A DNA stretch of 11,900 nucleotides, from positions 12,224-24,123 of the forward strand of contig QCWE01000004.1 in NCBI GenBank assembly GCA_003149555.1, in the 5' to 3' direction. A program made the translations under genes and the position numbers. Numbering within the stretch: the stretch's first letter is position 1; each line of letters starts with the position of its first letter. The notes under the pieces were generated by a model. It worked only from the letters and a program-made list of their open reading frames with translations, was not told where the DNA came from and did no database searches. Shown here in pieces: positions 2,009 to 11,900 of this stretch. Origin of the DNA: Candidatus Aquiluna sp. XM-24bin5. GTDB taxonomy: Bacteria > Actinomycetota > Actinomycetia > Actinomycetales > Microbacteriaceae.

Positions 2009-2863
2009 TCAAGTCTGCTCGCGGCTTGCTTCGTAGACAACATATGTGTCTTTCCCCGCTTGCTTGGCTTTATAAGTTGCTTCATCAGCACGTTTCATAG
2101 TTTTATCAAGATCTAGCGTATACTCCGCGATACCCATTGAGACAGTAATCGGCAGGTCAGAAATGGGTTCAAGGCGAATTCCATCAAGGAGCCGCTCTGC
2201 GGTCGTTACTGCTGCCTCAAAGCCTCCAGGAACCATTATTACGAACTCCTCGCCGCCAAGACGGGCAAATATATCCCGTTCCCTCATGGTACTATTGATG
2301 CGTTCAGCCAAACCTTTCAGAACCAGGTCACCTTTGTCATGACCATAAGTATCATTAATAGATTTAAAGTTATCAATATCAAAATGCAGCATAAAACCCG
2401 TAGAAAAACTATTCATTCGGCGCATGAAGCCGCGACGATTTAATATACCTGTGAGTGCGTCTCGCTCGGCTTCATCTTGAAAGGTTTCAAGTTTTACAGT
2501 TGTTGACGCCAACCATTTATTTACATTTCTGATCAAAAAACCAATTTCATCAGAACGTGTTTCAGACATGTGCGCAACAGGCTCGTTACGATCAAACGCT
2601 TTAATATTACGAATAATAGTAAAAATTGGAGATAGCAGTTTATTAATTGCATAAAGTGTAACTAATGTTCCAGCCAGGGTCGCTGAAAGAATAAGAAAAA
2701 ATATATTCCACGGACGGCTTGCACCACCATCCACTGAACCAAGCTCAAAATTTAGTACGTATATTGTAAAAGCCAAAAGTGGAATATGTGTGCCTAAAAA
2801 AGCAACAAACAGAATTTTATATGCGAATGATTTAGGAAAAATTCGATTGAGTGCAGCTTCCAT
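2009..2863 (-). CDS. Membrane diguanylate cyclase with HAMP-like linker and GGEEF domain
   Basis: This 284-residue protein makes cyclic di-GMP from two GTP at the inner membrane. Counting from the chosen start, two hydrophobic segments lie at about 17-38 and 52-74, separated by only a short periplasmic loop. A HAMP-like linker follows (about 75-125), with 'ISPIFTIIRNI' style residues and SDEIG. The GGDEF domain starts at 'DALTGILNRRGF' (about 135-146), has DIDNFKSINDTYGH (about 162-175) and the active-site GGEEF at 203-207. RERD at 194-197 is a product-inhibition I-site. All catalytic elements are present. The ATG at 2863-2861 has GGAGG five bases upstream; the in-frame ATG four codons earlier contains that ribosome site and is less likely. 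The gene is AT-rich compared with its neighbours. The exopolysaccharide genes downstream are plausible targets of its product. Confidence 0.9.
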   Translation of the reverse strand: MEAALNRIFPKSFAYKILFVAFLGTHIPLLAFTIYVLNFELGSVDGGASRPWNIFFLILSATLAGTLVTLYAINKLLSPIFTIIRNIKAFDRNEPVAHMSETRSDEIGFLIRNVNKWLASTTVKLETFQDEAERDALTGILNRRGFMRRMNSFSTGFMLHFDIDNFKSINDTYGHDKGDLVLKGLAERINSTMRERDIFARLGGEEFVIMVPGGFEAAVTTAERLLDGIRLEPISDLPITVSMGIAEYTLDLDKTMKRADEATYKAKQAGKDTYVVYEASREQT

Positions 2864-2868
2864 ACAAG

Positions 2869-2873
2869 CCTCC
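2869..2873 (-). promoter_or_regulatory. Shine-Dalgarno GGAGG selecting the second ATG of the cyclase
   Basis: GGAGG on the minus strand ends five bases before the ATG at 2863-2861. It lies inside the alternative first codons (ATG at 2875), which have no ribosome site of their own. Confidence 0.65.
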
Positions 2874-2902
2874 ATATGTCACGAGTGGTCTAACGGGCGT
2901 TT

Positions 2903-5069: not shown

Positions 5070-5549
5070 TTATATATCTGATCTCTGCAGATACATCGCG
5101 ACGTTATCAGCTGGGAATTTGAAACCCCGCCCGTCAGAGACACGTTCTGCACTAACAGGATATTTTGGCCTGTTAGGGTTGATTGCTACAATGCGAAAAA
5201 GTTCATCTCTTGATCGAAAAGTACGACCATAATCCGAGGGCTTCAGTCCAAAGTGAGGCGCGAGCACTTCAAACATAGCCTTGTCGGGAGAGTAGATCGC
5301 GCCGTCCAACTGCGGAATACCAACGCGGAAGCGAATTTCAAAACTATGGTGGAGGTCGATGTCGCTCAAGTCGCCCCCCTCAACCGTCAAGCCATGCGTT
5401 TTGGCCACAGCAAGGCATGCCTTCATCATGTCCCGACGCAGACGGTCACATAGTTCTGGTGTGAGATTGCGCGGCGAGGCAACCTTAGTGCCTGTCTGGA
5501 CTTCAGTCTTCTTCGTGAAGTTCTTTTGTTTGCGCGTATTCTTTTTCAC
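5070..5549 (-). CDS. Phage-type small protein (family of unknown function)
   Basis: This 159-residue protein starts at GTG 5549-5547, with GGAGG four bases upstream; the in-frame TTG at 5573 has no ribosome site. Residues 1-25 are very basic and Lys/Thr-rich (KKNTRKQKNFTKK), probably disordered and nucleic-acid-friendly. The C-terminal half contains 'HFGLKPSDYGRTFRSRDELFRIVAINPNRPKYPVSAE', then 'GFKFPADNV'. I recall a similar pattern (GLK..DLG..F...G..Y.IVGLNPR..KYPI.A....G..YKFPA..V) from small proteins of tailed phages and integrated elements; this is from memory and unchecked. Function is unknown. No other phage gene is present, so it is likely a lone survivor or a moron-type gene. Confidence 0.65.
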   Translation of the reverse strand: MKKNTRKQKNFTKKTEVQTGTKVASPRNLTPELCDRLRRDMMKACLAVAKTHGLTVEGGDLSDIDLHHSFEIRFRVGIPQLDGAIYSPDKAMFEVLAPHFGLKPSDYGRTFRSRDELFRIVAINPNRPKYPVSAERVSDGRGFKFPADNVAMYLQRSDI

Positions 5550-5553
5550 GCCC

Positions 5554-5558
5554 CCTCC
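5554..5558 (-). promoter_or_regulatory. Shine-Dalgarno GGAGG selecting a GTG start
   Basis: GGAGG on the minus strand is followed by GGGC and then GTG at 5549-5547. It places the start eight codons inside the longest open frame, which begins with TTG at 5573. Confidence 0.6.
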
Positions 5559-5573
5559 ATCTCGTGTTACCAA

Positions 5574-5890
5574 ATTTGAAATCCGGAAATCTTCACGAAT
5601 ACTTTATTAATTGAGCTATTTTCATTTGAATATATTAAAAATTCCTGACGCAGGTAGGATTATCTACAGGCCGCATGTCTGAGCCTCGGCCGCTTCTAAT
5701 GTCGTATGCACGATATCTTGCATGAGGGGAATGCGTTTCAAAGCGCGGCCAGATGGCTCAATGCCAGCTTGCGGGGACCATAGAAGCTCCCTCCTCAGAT
5801 GGGAATAGCTCACCTGCCAAGACATGTTCTGATTGCATCCGGATCTGCATGGAGCAACCTTGGTGCGACTGGGACAGGTCGCGTTTGGAT
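5574..5890. other. Divergent intergenic region between the phage-type gene and fic
   Basis: The first 80 bases are very AT-rich and probably hold the promoter of the leftward gene. The rest has no convincing gene. A minus-strand frame at 5664-5825 (53 codons) reads fairly protein-like at its end (LKRIPLMQDIVHTTLEAAEAQ) but has no ribosome site. It could be the tail of a decayed gene. Confidence 0.35.
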
Positions 5891-5896
5891 GTTTCT

Positions 5897-6082
5897 TTTT
5901 TCACATGTTGCGCTCAATAGTACGCATTTTTCGTAGATGTGTTTAAATTTTTCATGAATTTCATTGTTTGTAAGAATTTTTCACAAGATAACGGGATTTG
6001 TTTGTGATGTTCATGGACTGTTAGCGTTTTTCAGGAAGAGCATGGTCGATCAGCAATTTTCAGGACGTGTCAGTGTTTTTCA
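5897..6082 (+). promoter_or_regulatory. TTTTTCA motif array in the fic promoter and first codons
   Basis: Copies of TTTTTCA or one-base variants end at 5903, 5933, 5954, 5983, 6033, 6062 and 6082, with a weaker GTTCA at 6013. The spacings are 30, 21, 29, 30, 20, 29 and 20 bases, all close to multiples of the 10-10.5 bp helical turn. The sites therefore lie on one face of the helix. Two copies fall inside the fic coding sequence. The array could bind a repressor or activator cooperatively, or produce a T-tract bend. Confidence 0.6.
6033..6038 (+). promoter_or_regulatory. Shine-Dalgarno AGGAAG of fic, overlapping a TTTTTCA motif
   Basis: AGGAAG sits just before the ATG at 6042, and its first base is the last base of a TTTTTCA copy. 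A protein bound at that motif would block ribosome access or transcription through the start. Confidence 0.55.
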
Positions 6083-7586
6083 CGAAAGCAGGCTTCCCGA
6101 GCCTGCCTTGCCGGTGGGCTATGCCGCTCTGATCGATGCCTATGGGCTGGCCGTGCCCTTGCCGCGCGTGCTCTGCGCCATTGGGGCACGGCACAAAGTT
6201 TATGAAGAAGGTGGTTGGCGCATCTACACGCCGCGCCATGAACCCAAAGCCACTCTGGAAGGTCATCTGGTCTTTGCCCTCAAATATGAGGGACTTGATC
6301 TGTGTGTTTTAAAGCGCCTGTTTCAGGCGGTTGTAGCGGATGAGATGGCTGAGCTGGTGCGTTCAAAGCCTGCCAGTGCCTATATGCGCCGTCTTTGGTT
6401 TTTATATGAATGGCTTTTGAGTGACGCCCTTGATCTGCCAGATGCCAAATCCGGCACCTATCACGACGTTGTCGATCCCAAGCTGCAATGGGCGGTCAAA
6501 GGTGAGAATTCGACACGTCATCGTGTGCGCAACAACTTGCCCGGCACGCCGGAATTTTGTCCGCTGGTCTTTCGCACCAAGGCGCTGGAGGGTTTTGTTG
6601 GTGCGGCGCTTGATGAACGTGCGCGGGCAGTCATTGGCCGAATTTCTCCGTCGGTTCTGGCCCGCGCCACCGCCTTTCTTTTGCTCAAAGACTCCAAATC
6701 CAGCTATGCCATCGAAGGCGAAGCGCCGCCGCAAGATCGCATCCAACGTTGGGGCAAAGCCATTGGCAAGGCCGGGAAAAACCCCCTCACTCTTGATGAG
6801 TTCCTGCGCCTCCAGCAGATCGTGATTGGCAATGATCGCTTCGTCAAACTCGGCTTGCGCGATGAAGGCGGCTTTGTCGGCACCCATGATCGCGATACCC
6901 GCATGCCGCTTCCCGATCATATCTGCGCCCGTCATGATGATCTGCCCACTCTCATGCAGGGCCTCATCGATTTTGATCACCACTATGCGAACGAGCTAGA
7001 CCCCGTCATTGCGGCCAGCATTCTCGCATTCGGCTTTGTTTACATCCATCCCTTTGAAGACGGGAATGGACGTGTCCATCGCTATCTGATCCATCACGCA
7101 TTAAGCGCGCGCGGCTTTAATCCGCCCGGCATCGTCTTCCCGGTCTCTGCGGTCATTCTAGAGCGGATTGAGGAGTATCGGCGCACGCTTGAAGGCTATT
7201 CTGAACGACTCCTGCCCCTTGTGCGCTGGGAGCCGACCGAGAAGATGAATGTGCATGTCCTAAATGAGACAGGCGATTATTATCGCTATTTCGATGCGAC
7301 GCCGCATGCCGAGTTTTTGTTTGCATGTGTCGAGGCCACCATCGCACATAATCTTCCCGAAGAGGCAGCCTTCCTGGAGCGTTATGATCGTTTCAAGAAC
7401 CAAGTCGAAGCCCTGATCGAGATGCCGGCCTCCACCGTTGATTTGCTGTTTTCTTTTTTAAAGCAAAATGACGGCAAGCTCTCTAAGAGAGCTCGCGACA
7501 AAGAATTTGCAGCCCTCAGCGATGCGGAAACCACCGCCTTTGAAGCTTTGTACCGGGAGATATTTTTGGGCGAGGACGCTGCGTGA
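6042..7586 (+). CDS. fic: Fic-family protein AMP-transferase, class II (self-inhibited)
   Basis: This 514-residue Fic protein probably transfers AMP from ATP to a hydroxyl side chain of a target protein. The ATG at 6042 has AGGAAG upstream; a longer frame from TTG at 5964 would translate the upstream motif array and is rejected. The active-site loop HPFEDGNGRVHR (residues 336-347) matches HxFx(D/E)GNGRxxR completely. SYAIEG at 221-226 is the inhibitory (S/T)xxxE(G/N) motif, and its position N-terminal to the Fic core marks class II. The flap region GGFVGTHDRDTRMP lies at about 277-290. About 190 N-terminal residues ('LPEPALPVGYAALIDAYGLAVPLP' onward) form a family-specific domain seen in other stand-alone Fic proteins, perhaps for target choice. 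No separate antitoxin gene is adjacent. The target is unknown. Confidence 0.9.
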   Translation: MVDQQFSGRVSVFHESRLPEPALPVGYAALIDAYGLAVPLPRVLCAIGARHKVYEEGGWRIYTPRHEPKATLEGHLVFALKYEGLDLCVLKRLFQAVVADEMAELVRSKPASAYMRRLWFLYEWLLSDALDLPDAKSGTYHDVVDPKLQWAVKGENSTRHRVRNNLPGTPEFCPLVFRTKALEGFVGAALDERARAVIGRISPSVLARATAFLLLKDSKSSYAIEGEAPPQDRIQRWGKAIGKAGKNPLTLDEFLRLQQIVIGNDRFVKLGLRDEGGFVGTHDRDTRMPLPDHICARHDDLPTLMQGLIDFDHHYANELDPVIAASILAFGFVYIHPFEDGNGRVHRYLIHHALSARGFNPPGIVFPVSAVILERIEEYRRTLEGYSERLLPLVRWEPTEKMNVHVLNETGDYYRYFDATPHAEFLFACVEATIAHNLPEEAAFLERYDRFKNQVEALIEMPASTVDLLFSFLKQNDGKLSKRARDKEFAALSDAETTAFEALYREIFLGEDAA

Positions 7587-7736: not shown

Positions 7737-7775
7737 GATCCAGAAGCACCAAAAGCATGCAATCGCTTCTGGATC
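7737..7775. repeat. Perfect 11-bp inverted repeat with 17-base loop
   Basis: GATCCAGAAGC (7737-7747) and GCTTCTGGATC (7765-7775) are perfect reverse complements. No T-tract follows on either strand. A minus-strand frame of 29 codons (7774-7863) ends at this repeat but has no ribosome site. The surrounding 7615-7888 holds no supportable gene. The repeat may be a transposon-end relic or a 3'-end structure. Confidence 0.55.
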
Positions 7776-7888
7776 AGACGGACTTGTTGCGATTAATCAT
7801 AGCTTCGAAAAGGTAAGGTGACAATTCGACAGGCTTGGCACAGATCTCGTTGATCTTAGCCATGTCATCAGGTGGGCACCTCTATAAA

Positions 7889-7972
7889 TTAGAAAATTGG
7901 GCAAATAAGCACCTGGAAGTCGTTGATTTTATTGGCGTGGGAATTCTGACTCCAGAATTAATAGAAATGCCC
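7889..7972. repeat. Left arm of a long imperfect inverted repeat (MITE/REP-like element)
   Basis: The arm starts with TTAGAAAATTGG (7889-7900), continues with GATTTTA near its middle, holds the palindrome AATTCTG-ACTC-CAGAATT (7942-7959) and ends with CAGAATTAATAGAAATGCCC (7953-7972). Each block recurs, inverted and in the same order, in the arm at 8378-8460, with inter-block distances of 52 and 51 bases. Similarity may extend outward by about 15 bases (GTGGGCACC against AGTGCCACC). Confidence 0.7.
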
Positions 7973-8013
7973 AAGTGTCAAAGGAAGCCTTACACGCACC
8001 TCAACGACATGGG

Positions 8014-8151
8014 CTACTCGAAGTTTGGGCTTGGGGAGACTCCTCGCATGGAGGTACCAGACATCAGTCCCATCGCGCTACTACGCACCTTGACGATCGA
8101 CCGTTTGCGAGACGATTTACCGATCGTGGCAGATGATTTTTTGTGACGCAT
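8014..8151 (-). CDS. Possible 45-residue basic protein inside the MITE-like element
   Basis: The ATG at 8151-8149 has AAAGGAG eight bases upstream, a good ribosome site. The peptide begins MRHKKSSATIGKSSRKRSI and is rich in Lys, Arg and Ser. I do not recognise it. A second ATG five bases closer to the ribosome site starts a different short frame. The opposite strand is also open here, so coding status is uncertain; the ribosome site is the main support. Confidence 0.25.
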   Translation of the reverse strand: MRHKKSSATIGKSSRKRSIVKVRSSAMGLMSGTSMRGVSPSPNFE

Positions 8152-8377
8152 GACATGATCTCCTTTCAAAAATATAGGGAAGATTGGGGCTTCTGGAACC
8201 AGAAATATTATCACCCCACGCCAAGGTTGAGGCAGTAAACCTCTGGAAAGGCTGCGCCAAAATGACCGCCTAATAAGCACAGCTCCCACGCCTCTCAATA
8301 GGGCCACATCAAGTTGGCAATGCTCAGCTGAATTTTCAAATGATGTTCACATATATATTGAGTGCTTTCCCGCTAAA

Positions 8378-8460
8378 GGGCATCTCTATTAATTCTGACC
8401 CCAGAATTATCTGCCTAGTAAAATCGATGCCTGTGGGCCTTTATGCTTCCAATTTTCTAA
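8378..8460. repeat. Right arm of the long imperfect inverted repeat
   Basis: Reading inward to outward it holds GGGCATCTCTATTAATTCTG (8378-8397), one mismatch from the reverse complement of 7953-7972. The palindrome AATTCTG-ACCC-CAGAATT follows (8391-8408), then TAAAATC, then CCAATTTTCTAA (8449-8460), the exact reverse complement of 7889-7900. Together the arms enclose 405 bases. The 'TTCTGACCCCAGAA' core resembles, from memory, REP-type palindromes that accompany mobile elements. Confidence 0.7.
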
Positions 8461-8554
8461 AATTGGGTGGCACTTTAAAGAAATAAATCAAAATTTGGTT
8501 CGTTCGTGACTGTAGTTTGATGGAAATTATTGCAATGGAGTCCAACGGTTACCT

Positions 8555-8980
8555 TCAGATGAGGCTTCGATAATTAATTGAACCACGTTCCTCCGCCTTT
8601 TTTTTCATCATCTGCAAAATTGACTCAGCAAGATCTACGTCAGAATTACCCGCTGTGAAAAGATGTTCCGTTTCTCTGTCATCAAACGAGACGTATTCCA
8701 TGTACCATCTGGGAAAGATACGTGCCTCTGGACTATCTTCTGCTAATATCGTAAAGTCACTATGCAGAGAACTACGACGTATACGCTCTAAAACATCATA
8801 TATAACGCCCTCATTTCCCTCAATGTATTGAAAATATGTATCGCCACTACGAACTAGAAATCCAGTAACCCCAAGCCTGCGATTTTCAAGAAGAATACCA
8901 TCCATGAGCTCTGCTTCTATGGGCGAAAAAGGCTTGATATGGGCTTTGCTTTTGTAAATGATACTTCGGAGTTGTGACAT
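8555..8980 (-). CDS. Stand-alone BLUF-domain blue-light receptor
   Basis: This 141-residue protein is a short BLUF photoreceptor that binds FAD and senses blue light. The five key pocket residues of the family are present: Y9 (IIYKS), N33 (ENRRLGVTG), Q51 (YFQYIEG), W92 and M94 (PRWYM). Their spacings (24, 18, 41 and 2) equal those of AppA Y21, N45, Q63, W104 and M106. Residues about 1-100 are the BLUF fold; 101-141 form a helical tail (SDVDLAESILQMMKKKAEE) that could carry the output interface. No enzymatic domain is fused. The start is the ATG at 8980-8978, with GGAG seven bases upstream (8988-8991) inside the last codons of the cyclase gene. The stop of the cyclase and this start are four bases apart, so translation is coupled and the two proteins are probably partners. 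Confidence 0.92.
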   Translation of the reverse strand: MSQLRSIIYKSKAHIKPFSPIEAELMDGILLENRRLGVTGFLVRSGDTYFQYIEGNEGVIYDVLERIRRSSLHSDFTILAEDSPEARIFPRWYMEYVSFDDRETEHLFTAGNSDVDLAESILQMMKKKAEERGSINYRSLI

Positions 8981-8984
8981 TATC

Positions 8985-10172
8985 TTACTCCGTGCCAACA
9001 GATAGATTGGACACTGATGACTTTCTGACTGCGCGTTTTTGACGGTACATCCGCTGATCTGCTAACGAAATTGCCTCGTCAATGTTTAAGAAATCACCGC
9101 AATGCGCAACACCTACACTGATTTCGATTGGTGGGAGATCCAAACTCTCGCTCCCATTTCTCTGCGCGAGAAACTCCTGCGCACGCTGCATAACACCTTC
9201 TGCCTGCTCAGCTGTGGCGTCCAGAAGGATGACGAATTCATCACCACCAACACGCGCAGGACAATCAATGCCACGCGTGATTTTTCTCAGCGCTGAGCCA
9301 ACAATTTGTATTGCTCGATCGCCAACCTGGTGACCATACTGATCGTTAATCTCTTTCAGATTATTTATGTCAGCAATTGCAACGCTGAAGCCTCCATTGA
9401 TTTTACTAAAAGTATTTGTGAGTGCTTCATCAAGTCCCCTACGCGAGGCACATCCGGTTAAAGTATCGATCAAGGTATTGCGGCGTATTTCCTTATAATT
9501 TTTGCGGAAGACAAATAGAATGACAGTCAAAATTGTTAAAGCAACAGAGATGAAAACTGCGAGCCACAGTGTGTTTTCCACAGATCGTAGCGTTTCCGCC
9601 GCGCGTTCGCGTACAGAAACTTTGTACCCGCGTGCATCCTGCAGGACAACACTAATAGACTTTTTCCAGAGTACCTCCGCTTCTTTTGCCAAACCAATGA
9701 GATCATTGAGCTCATCAGAGCCAAGCTCTTCGTGCATATCCACGATATCTGCCATGAGATCGCGATATCTGATCATATCGGCCGGAATTGTAGAATTTTT
9801 TTCATCTTTATGGAAGGCAGAGGCAATATTTGGATCAAGAGCTTGGCTAAGGCGCGAATATACGATATCAAAGTCAGCGCGAATATCGTCTTCCAAAGAC
9901 TTCGGATTAAATTTGGCTTCTTGTGCCAACCTCTGGAACTCAAGAAGTTCGGTTTGAATTTGTGTTGCTGTCCATAATCCTGCGTCTCGATCTGAGCTGA
10001 TGAGATGGTCAATTTCATGTTGAACGGTATTTATGCGTGTTGCAAATGCAATAACCAAAAGGAGGCCAACAAGAAAGGCAAGTGACGCGATCAGCAAACC
10101 TTGATATGTCCGCCAAATTTGATTTAGACGGGACGCTTTTTGCGGTTCAAATGTGTGCGGCACATATTTCAT
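8985..10172 (-). CDS. Membrane diguanylate cyclase with periplasmic sensor domain
   Basis: This 395-residue protein makes cyclic di-GMP from GTP. One membrane helix at about 24-45 and a second at about 203-222 flank a periplasmic region of about 155 residues that is helical in character, like four-helix-bundle sensors. The GGDEF domain runs from DTLTGCASRRG (236-246) through DINNLKEINDQYGH (268-281) to GGDEF at 309-313, with the I-site RGID at 300-303. 'DINN' replaces the usual 'DIDx', leaving the first metal-binding Asp in place. The cyclase should be active and product-inhibited. The ATG at 10172 has no clear Shine-Dalgarno. The BLUF gene follows four bases downstream. The simplest reading is that the BLUF protein modulates this enzyme in response to blue light, while the periplasmic domain reads a second signal. 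Confidence 0.92.
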   Translation of the reverse strand: MKYVPHTFEPQKASRLNQIWRTYQGLLIASLAFLVGLLLVIAFATRINTVQHEIDHLISSDRDAGLWTATQIQTELLEFQRLAQEAKFNPKSLEDDIRADFDIVYSRLSQALDPNIASAFHKDEKNSTIPADMIRYRDLMADIVDMHEELGSDELNDLIGLAKEAEVLWKKSISVVLQDARGYKVSVRERAAETLRSVENTLWLAVFISVALTILTVILFVFRKNYKEIRRNTLIDTLTGCASRRGLDEALTNTFSKINGGFSVAIADINNLKEINDQYGHQVGDRAIQIVGSALRKITRGIDCPARVGGDEFVILLDATAEQAEGVMQRAQEFLAQRNGSESLDLPPIEISVGVAHCGDFLNIDEAISLADQRMYRQKRAVRKSSVSNLSVGTE

Positions 10173-10936: not shown

Positions 10937-11900
10937 GGTCGTGTCGCGAATGCTGTGGAAATTGCCTGGCGGCGCGCTCCGGGCATGTGATGGATCGATG
11001 TTTTAGGCTGCGAGGTCAAGGGGCATGGGTTCGAGGGGCTTAGAGAAGGTTTCCCAGCCATCGACCTTGCGCATCTGGATCTGACCGGAGGCGAGCAACG
11101 CCCATAGCAGCATTGGCACGGTCTCGGCACAGGGCAACACGGTCTGAGTCTTGATGCGGCGGCGGAACTCCTCGTTGAGGCGCTCAATGGCGTTGGTAGT
11201 CCTGGCGGACTTCCATTGCGTTGGATCGAGGCGGGTGAATGTGAAGAGCCGGTCCCCCGCTTCCTCCAGGCTATCGGCGACAGCCCGGCACTTCAGGCGC
11301 CACTTGCGGAGAAATGCCCTGCGCCTTTTCTCGACCTCGACCGCGGTGTCGGCATAGATCATGTCCCGGTAGTCTTCGGTCAGCTCGTCGTGCATGTGCT
11401 TCGGGGCATGGGCCAGAAGGTTACGGTGCTTGTGAACCGTGCAGCGCTGGATCGGCAGCTCCTCTCCCCACAACCCCACGAGCGCAGCCTCCAGCCCCGG
11501 GGCGCCATCAACGATCACGAATTCGGGCCGTTTCATGCCGCGGGCGTCAAGATCGTCGAGGAACTGGCGCCACGCGGCAGTGCTCTCCCCGCCCATATTC
11601 TTGATGGAAAGCAGCACCTTCTGACCGTCGCGGCGCACACCGATGGCGGCCAGCACTGAGATGTTCGTCGCCTTCTTGTCGATGCGGGTCTTGATCACGG
11701 TACCATCGAGAATGAGCCGGACGACGTCCTCATCGGCGAGGCCGCGGGCGCACCACGCATCCCAGTCCGTCTTCACCTTGCGCCAGGTCCGGCTGACCAC
11801 GTCTTTGCTCACAGCGCCCTCAAACAGCCCGAACAGCGCTCGCTTGACGCGCCGGGTGTTGGTGCCGGAGAGATAGACTGCGGCGATCAAGGCTTCGGCC
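10937..11900 (-). mobile_element. IS256-family insertion sequence, 3' part (5' part beyond window)
   Basis: The element contains the transposase gene at 11003-11900. Its 3' end is placed at 10937 because GGTCGTGTCGCGAATGCTG, followed by TGGAAATT, has the look of an IS256-family terminal inverted repeat. The IS630 coding similarity also ends at 10936. The other terminus lies outside the window, so the repeat and the target duplication cannot be confirmed. The element is more GC-rich than everything to its left. Confidence 0.6.
11003..11900 (-). CDS. IS256-family transposase, C-terminal part (N-terminus beyond window)
   Basis: The frame is open from the right edge to TAA at 11005-11003, giving 298 visible codons; the family is usually about 400 residues, so roughly 100 are missing. 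It has the family's DDE residues: Asp in LILDGTVI, Asp in VIVDGAPGL, and Glu in TTNAIERLNEEF. Other hallmarks are RRVKRAL, KDVVSR, QRCTVHKHRN and WALLASGQI. The visible part carries no frameshift or stop, so the copy may be active and recent. An internal TTG at 11890 is not the start: the upstream codons (A-E-A) continue the family sequence. Confidence 0.93.
   Translation of the reverse strand, partial: AEALIAAVYLSGTNTRRVKRALFGLFEGAVSKDVVSRTWRKVKTDWDAWCARGLADEDVVRLILDGTVIKTRIDKKATNISVLAAIGVRRDGQKVLLSIKNMGGESTAAWRQFLDDLDARGMKRPEFVIVDGAPGLEAALVGLWGEELPIQRCTVHKHRNLLAHAPKHMHDELTEDYRDMIYADTAVEVEKRRRAFLRKWRLKCRAVADSLEEAGDRLFTFTRLDPTQWKSARTTNAIERLNEEFRRRIKTQTVLPCAETVPMLLWALLASGQIQMRKVDGWETFSKPLEPMPLDLAA

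Follow-up and report, generated by a model that had tools for sequence, protein, structure and literature searches.

A stand-alone BLUF photoreceptor gene directly behind a membrane diguanylate cyclase gene: a possible light input to c-di-GMP synthesis

Gene content of the locus

The window, that is the whole stretch of 11,900 nucleotides analysed here, carries an intact gene for a membrane diguanylate cyclase and, directly behind it, a complete gene for a stand-alone BLUF protein. The features identified in the two genes are the following:

8985..10172, minus strand: membrane diguanylate cyclase with GGDEF-only output, 395 aa (open reading frame; PF00990, 113.5 bits)
10041..10097, minus strand: cyclase transmembrane helix 1, residues about 26-44 (19-residue hydropathy maximum of 2.93 at residue 26)
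9564..9998, minus strand: cyclase periplasmic helical sensor domain, residues about 59-203, with a WX7E motif at W67-E75 (predicted helices 63-85, 90-112, 129-146 and 152-234; homology to the cyclase adjoining pruR in genome G1235)
9507..9563, minus strand: cyclase transmembrane helix 2 (TM2), residues 204-222, continuing into a short GGDEF linker (hydropathy 2.91 at residue 204; single helix 152-234 in the model)
9021..9473, minus strand: cyclase GGDEF domain, residues 234-384 (Pfam match)
9264-9275, minus strand: RxxD I-site, R300-D303 (sequence)
9234-9248, minus strand: GGDEF motif, residues 309-313 (sequence)
8988..8991, minus strand: Shine-Dalgarno GGAG of the BLUF gene, within the cyclase coding sequence, 7 nt before the BLUF ATG (read from the sequence)
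8555..8980, minus strand: stand-alone BLUF protein, 141 aa (PF04940, 56.7 bits)
8567..8641, minus strand: BLUF C-terminal helix, residues 114-138, candidate docking element (predicted helix, final residues of low confidence)

The cyclase stop codon occupies 8985-8987 and the BLUF ATG 8978-8980 of the same strand, leaving a gap of 4 nt. An earlier note on this DNA had placed the BLUF start four bases past the cyclase stop, with its ribosome site inside the cyclase gene; both can be read in the sequence and the gene-pair observation is confirmed. The automatic ORF caller chose a TTG at 8998 as the BLUF start; we retained the ATG, at which the close homologues P0001-P0003 start. Promoter and terminator scans gave signals at or below shuffle level, and no Rfam element was matched.

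The same note had described a two-helix membrane GGDEF protein with intact GGDEF and I-site motifs, a description borne out by Pfam, by hydropathy and by an alignment of 13 cyclases including that of the window. Two hydrophobic helices flank the periplasmic region, PF00990 is the sole Pfam domain matched, with no EAL domain, and GGDEF (309-313) and RxxD (R300-D303) are intact, with no variation across the alignment. D268, K273, N276 and D285 are likewise invariant, and we take them to be metal and nucleotide residues with roles as in PleD. The single-chain model (pLDDT 80.6, pTM 0.48) predicts a helical periplasmic region and one unbroken helix, 152-234, which passes through TM2 into the GGDEF domain. 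The linker residues R223, Y226, R230 and L234, each present in at least 8 of the nine near cyclases described below, differ in four more distant homologues and are candidates for BLUF contact; a BLUF neighbour was seen or inferred for 5 of the nine, the neighbourhood of the distant homologues was seen for G1235 alone, and the near and distant groups, which descent also separates, differ at 57 positions in all.

The BLUF protein matches PF04940 with 56.7-57.1 bits, above the cut-off of 25. The assembly's other BLUF reaches 99.7 bits against Pfam, and the low score of the window BLUF (57.1 vs 99.7 bits) marks it as a member of a diverged subfamily. The pocket residues Y9, N33, Q51, W92 and M94, picked out earlier, all occur and do not vary among 17 aligned BLUFs (including that of the window) reaching down to 19% identity; AppA and BlrB are among the relatives of known structure. 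The BLUF model (pLDDT 85.6) has Tll0078/TePixD and BlrB as its best PDB fold matches, at E about 1e-11. In the C-terminal helix, D114, A118, M125, A129 and R132 are invariant in 10 of 10 subfamily members; residues 114-138 may serve in docking.

Conservation of the gene pair

A scan of named genomes with the BLUF alignment recovered a single relative, in Alexandriicola marinus LZ-14 (Rhodobacterales, Paracoccaceae); the same scan with the window BLUF sequence alone found nothing. In A. marinus the cyclase gene (L061:4803-5993) is followed after 7 nt by the BLUF gene (6001-6426), the only BLUF match in that genome, whose ribosome site, AGGG, likewise lies inside the cyclase end. Identity between the window and A. 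marinus is 61% for the cyclase and 62% for the BLUF protein. On the 3' side of the A. marinus pair, inspection of the translations by eye shows lipB-like and cytochrome oxidase genes, so that the surroundings of the pair are unlike those in the window. Agreement at codon positions 1, 2 and 3 was 0.745, 0.809 and 0.404 for the BLUF genes and 0.716, 0.817 and 0.406 for the cyclase genes. This places both genes under purifying selection. Near the A. marinus pair, at L061:2390-3520, there is also a sub-threshold match to PF08794 (21.6 vs 28.1 bits).

The cyclase database search scored 7,997 candidates. Among the best 120 of its 1,456 matches, nine lie at 49-99% identity and the next falls to 38%. 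Two BLUF searches gave 16 entries, eleven near full length (43-97%), one incomplete (P0004) and four distant. The entries carry no gene context, and equality in the size of the longest contig was taken as an indirect sign of linkage. By this measure 4 of the nine near cyclases, and none of the other 111 listed cyclases, share the exact size with a BLUF entry (cyclase/BLUF, size):

P0007/P0001, 2434
P0011/P0130, 8674
P0013/P0129, 11573
P0014/P0133, 2405

P0007/P0001 is nearly the window's own pair. Five near cyclases (P0008, P0009, P0010, P0012 and P0015) lack a size-matched partner, as do 12 of the 16 BLUF entries. P0008 is contained in the A. marinus cyclase and P0003 differs from the A. marinus BLUF by one residue, and these two do not match each other either, so that missing size matches say little.

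Distances between the cyclases and between the BLUF proteins were correlated over five pairs, namely the window, A. marinus and three pairings by longest-contig size alone, which is few for a mirror-tree. The correlation was r 0.906, a value reached by the true pairing alone of 120 permutations; it is no proof of contact, because genes inherited together would agree without it. The earlier note had called for a search for conserved GGDEF-BLUF neighbours, and its outcome was positive: the pair recurs in A. marinus amid different flanking genes and, judging from the longest-contig sizes, probably also in further metagenome relatives.

Rarity of BLUF genes beside GGDEF-only cyclases

The combination of a BLUF protein with a GGDEF-only cyclase is rare. 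We surveyed the neighbours of BLUF genes with two home-made profiles (GGDEF and EAL) at E 1e-5 over 1.5 kb on each side, the flank being shorter in four loci at contig ends and longer in A. marinus and five plasmid loci. The set comprised 86 loci (84 distinct, L011/L035 and L021/L057 being the same places) and 14 from the A. marinus order, mostly the best-scoring of each search and not a random sample. With the window and A. marinus left out, an intact GGDEF-only neighbour within 1.5 kb was found at none of the 96 other distinct BLUF loci. Four of these lie beside a GGDEF-EAL gene, one of them on contig C2 of this assembly, and one (L013) beside a partial GGDEF-like protein. This last locus, a BLUF gene followed by the GGDEF-like protein (L013:572-1273 and 1360-1881) in a genome of the filed genus, was considered as a second BLUF/GGDEF pair and rejected, the GGDEF-like protein being partial (42 vs 113 bits) with a motif that is degenerate by eye.

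Among 390 genomes sampled around A. marinus, 66 of which reach E 1e-22, a close BLUF was found in A. marinus itself only; the next best, in G1334, is 32% identical to the window BLUF and lies beside neither a GGDEF nor an EAL gene. Similarly, in 394 genomes around A. marinus, with at most 4 candidates scored in each, A. marinus alone has a BLUF-linked cyclase. The window cyclase was the sole full-length match in 385 genomes of the class, where two other matches, at about 1e-36, cover the GGDEF domain only. Near relatives of the BLUF were limited to the window itself in 100 genomes of the filed genus and 397 of the filed family; a second genome of the window's species lacked any BLUF match, and viral contigs gave no match. 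The plasmid collection holds 27 BLUF records, none above 40% identity, and the neighbours of 5 of them include no cyclase; the A. marinus cyclase found no match among plasmids by blastn.

Among the surveyed loci, L015, L020 and L036 show two BLUF genes in close tandem. At the C2 locus (L029:260-706 and 718-2118) a GGDEF-EAL gene is followed after 11 nt by the assembly's second BLUF gene, a canonical one, in a PapA/PapB-like manner, and three more GGDEF-EAL/BLUF neighbours occur in genomes of the filed family (L049, L053 and L056).

Origin of the window DNA

The assembly consists of one 2.29-Mb contig (C1) and eleven small contigs, and the window lies on C7 (29 kb). The C7 helicase gene has 78.5% DNA identity to Pseudosulfitobacter plasmids, and the 35 records that it matches all belong to Rhodobacterales genera. 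C5 has a replication and mobilisation region with 92% identity to Pseudosulfitobacter plasmids, and part of a C2 transposase is found again on C4, C9 and C10, not on C1. Tetranucleotide correlation is 0.09-0.25 between C7 pieces and C1, 0.72 among C1 pieces and 0.35-0.37 between C7 and A. marinus; as A. marinus correlates equally well with C1 (0.26-0.39), this pattern alone decides little. The scanned pieces yielded no tRNA.

The window is most likely Rhodobacterales plasmid-type DNA, either acquired by the filed genome or contaminating it, and its contig may not belong with the chromosome under which it is filed. The whole set C2-C12 has the appearance of Rhodobacterales plasmid-like DNA unlike C1, from acquired plasmids or contamination. 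This uncertain origin weakens any claim on what else the same cell carries, such as the BLUF/GGDEF-EAL pair of C2 or the PruR homologue of C4 (see below), and leaves the pair itself unaffected.

The periplasmic domain and its likely input

The periplasmic sensor region noted earlier is a predicted helical domain between the two transmembrane helices, and its likely input can now be named from the pruR genes found beside homologues of the cyclase, an association that is new here. According to the sections consulted of a 2026 review, the ligand that PruR binds in the periplasm is a reduced pterin, its target in Agrobacterium is the periplasmic domain of DcpA, and WX7E is the motif of DcpA-type domains (PMC13259868). 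Divergent from the A. marinus cyclase gene lies a gene at L061:3812-4519 whose product matches 7KOS, a crystallised pterin-binding PruR protein, with E 1.9e-18; this product has no Pfam match at 0.01 and was placed via solved structures. In G1235, a PruR homologue (E 3.6e-37 to 7KOS) lies about 90 nt upstream of a distant full-length cyclase homologue, on the same strand, and is 38% identical to the A. marinus protein. Pterin bound to PruR is therefore the likely periplasmic input of the cyclase in these relatives. No BLUF gene was found near the G1235 cyclase in a 16-kb stretch, from which it follows that the cyclase fold does not need BLUF.

In the window's own assembly, a third PruR homologue lies on contig C4 (E 4.2e-19 to 7KOS). 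Its match crosses one TGA, and the copy may be broken or start later. Next to it is the gene of a histidine kinase that has PAS and receiver domains and resembles the kinases of PruR-DTB systems (L074:2502-5207 and 5213-5647). A BLASTP comparison of the window cyclase with this PruR-linked kinase gave a match of 13 residues only (E 0.016), which was not taken as proof. On contig C7, apart from 771 masked bases, tblastn found no pruR, and no pruR remnant was found upstream of the window cyclase. There, about 800 bp hold no recognised gene and are followed by an IS256-type transposase (11003-11899, minus strand); beyond the window the contig is partly masked. When the motif was compared by the review's description, WX7E was present in the window (W67-E75) and A. 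marinus cyclases and absent from P0009, P0012, P0015-P0018 and G1235.

Comparison with known systems

That a sensor may act in trans on a c-di-GMP enzyme is an already known principle. The statement of the earlier note that known links between BLUF and c-di-GMP lie mostly on the phosphodiesterase side holds in a 2022 review, where the BLUF entries in the examined part of Table 1 are without exception phosphodiesterases or their regulators (PMC8846402). The closest parallel in form described there is PapB-PapA of Rhodopseudomonas palustris, in which a short BLUF protein acts in trans on a c-di-GMP enzyme that has its own gene and C-terminal BLUF helices are implicated in the contact (PMC8846402). 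The window resembles it in having a stand-alone BLUF gene 4 nt from the gene of a c-di-GMP enzyme; unlike PapA, this partner has no EAL domain and is an intact membrane GGDEF cyclase, for synthesis and not breakdown. BLUF-EAL fusions such as BlrP1 and BldP, the latter a fused BLUF-EAL protein, also tie BLUF to c-di-GMP turnover, as fused phosphodiesterases.

Small soluble sensors that regulate, or are proposed to regulate, cyclases in trans are represented by H-NOX proteins, which in the consulted part of the 2022 review include a regulator of Dgc1 in Dinoroseobacter shibae (PMC8846402); the H-NOX and cyclase (DgcA) genes of Paracoccus denitrificans overlap (PMC5588039, in part). The window sensor differs in being a flavin BLUF and not a haem NO sensor, and HNOB was not matched. 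PruR-DcpA of Agrobacterium tumefaciens is likewise a membrane c-di-GMP enzyme with a periplasmic domain, and pruR adjoins homologues of the window cyclase in A. marinus and G1235; the window system departs from it by a GGDEF-only cyclase without EAL, an extra BLUF gene and the absence of pruR from the contig. In the consulted text of the 2026 review the words BLUF and photoreceptor are absent. The fold search with the cyclase model ranked 7e6g first, the SiaC-SiaD complex of Pseudomonas aeruginosa, in which a cyclase is bound to an activator protein; unlike the window BLUF, SiaC is not known to be a photoreceptor.

Blue light reaches a cyclase of Erythrobacter flavus via a LOV kinase, not BLUF (PMC12172448, in part), and the consulted part of a 2014 review gives one fused BLUF-GGDEF/EAL protein (PMC4844311). 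A deep-sea BLUF paper contains no c-di-GMP terms (PMC8805636). In the parts of the open-licence literature searched, we found no stand-alone BLUF protein controlling a cyclase.

Proposed mechanism and alternative explanations

The position of the BLUF gene directly behind an intact cyclase gene, in a pair that recurs, suggests that the pair may be a light switch on c-di-GMP synthesis, and we consider it probable that the two genes form a light input in which BLUF acts in trans on the cyclase. The two genes would share an mRNA, and their products would bind each other. Blue light would rearrange the flavin pocket (Y9, Q51, W92/M94) and shift the C-terminal helix 114-138, which would touch the TM2-GGDEF linker (residues about 223-236) or a face of the GGDEF domain. 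Such a contact could alter how the two GGDEF domains of the dimer meet, so that light would set the rate of c-di-GMP synthesis, and the I-site would add product feedback. As to the sign of the response, LOV cyclases are mostly light-activated. Together with the BLUF phosphodiesterases of the 2022 review, which are light-activated in the consulted part of its table (PMC8846402), this makes us lean slightly towards activation of the cyclase by light rather than the opposite.

The periplasmic domain would feed the same TM2 helix from outside. With pterin-loaded PruR as its likely ligand in relatives, one enzyme would combine light with a periplasmic redox or pterin cue. We put forward only tentatively, as somewhat less probable than the light input itself, a two-sided switch in which the cyclase reads PruR-borne reduced pterin on the periplasmic side and blue light, through its dedicated BLUF, on the cytoplasmic side.

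The recurrence of the pair bears on other explanations as well. Chance neighbourhood in a mosaic plasmid might be suspected, the window being mosaic with an IS256-type transposase and low-GC stretches; it is contradicted by the pair and its order being kept in A. marinus, and probably elsewhere, and appears very improbable. Travelling and being expressed together does not by itself make the cyclase the target of BLUF: BLUF could act on a transcription factor, for instance PpsR or Fur, or on another c-di-GMP enzyme, leaving the cyclase to answer its periplasmic input only. BlsA of Acinetobacter acts without c-di-GMP, and the distant G1235 homologue does without BLUF in its 16-kb stretch. For a single-domain BLUF of Congregibacter, PpsR has been proposed as target in the part of the literature consulted (PMC2654016). 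This BLUF subfamily, however, has this cyclase subfamily as its partner both in A. marinus, amid unrelated surroundings, and in the size-matched entries, and we regard a different target as unlikely. The low Pfam score and diverged subfamily of the BLUF would also fit a protein that serves the cyclase as scaffold or stabiliser, constitutively or with a weak response to light, and keeps its flavin for redox or FAD sensing. The five photochemical residues (Y, N, Q, W and M) are nevertheless invariant in the 17 BLUFs even at 19% identity, which leaves such a scaffold with little probability.

If light input to the cyclase is correct, it would supply the missing arm of BLUF control, BLUF proteins touching c-di-GMP through phosphodiesterases only in the consulted part of the 2022 review (PMC8846402). 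It would tie light and pterin sensing together in one enzyme, as a light branch of the PruR-DcpA pathway, and would offer a natural two-part flavin-based tool for raising c-di-GMP by light. Should C2 and C7 come from one cell, the BLUF/GGDEF-EAL pair of C2 might extend the action of light to both arms.

Other genes on the contig

c-di-GMP is a biofilm signal. Elsewhere on C7 lie genes of polysaccharide export, O-antigen ligase-like and Wzz/tyrosine-kinase types (L030:6500-7684, 7762-9216 and 9716-12067), and these polysaccharide genes are a possible output of c-di-GMP control. The window further contains, on this contig with exopolysaccharide genes, a second small diguanylate cyclase with GGEEF and RxxD motifs (2009-2875, minus strand), and a Fic-domain protein of 540 aa (5964-7586, plus strand) with an intact HPFxDGNGR, which we take to be the Fic motif.
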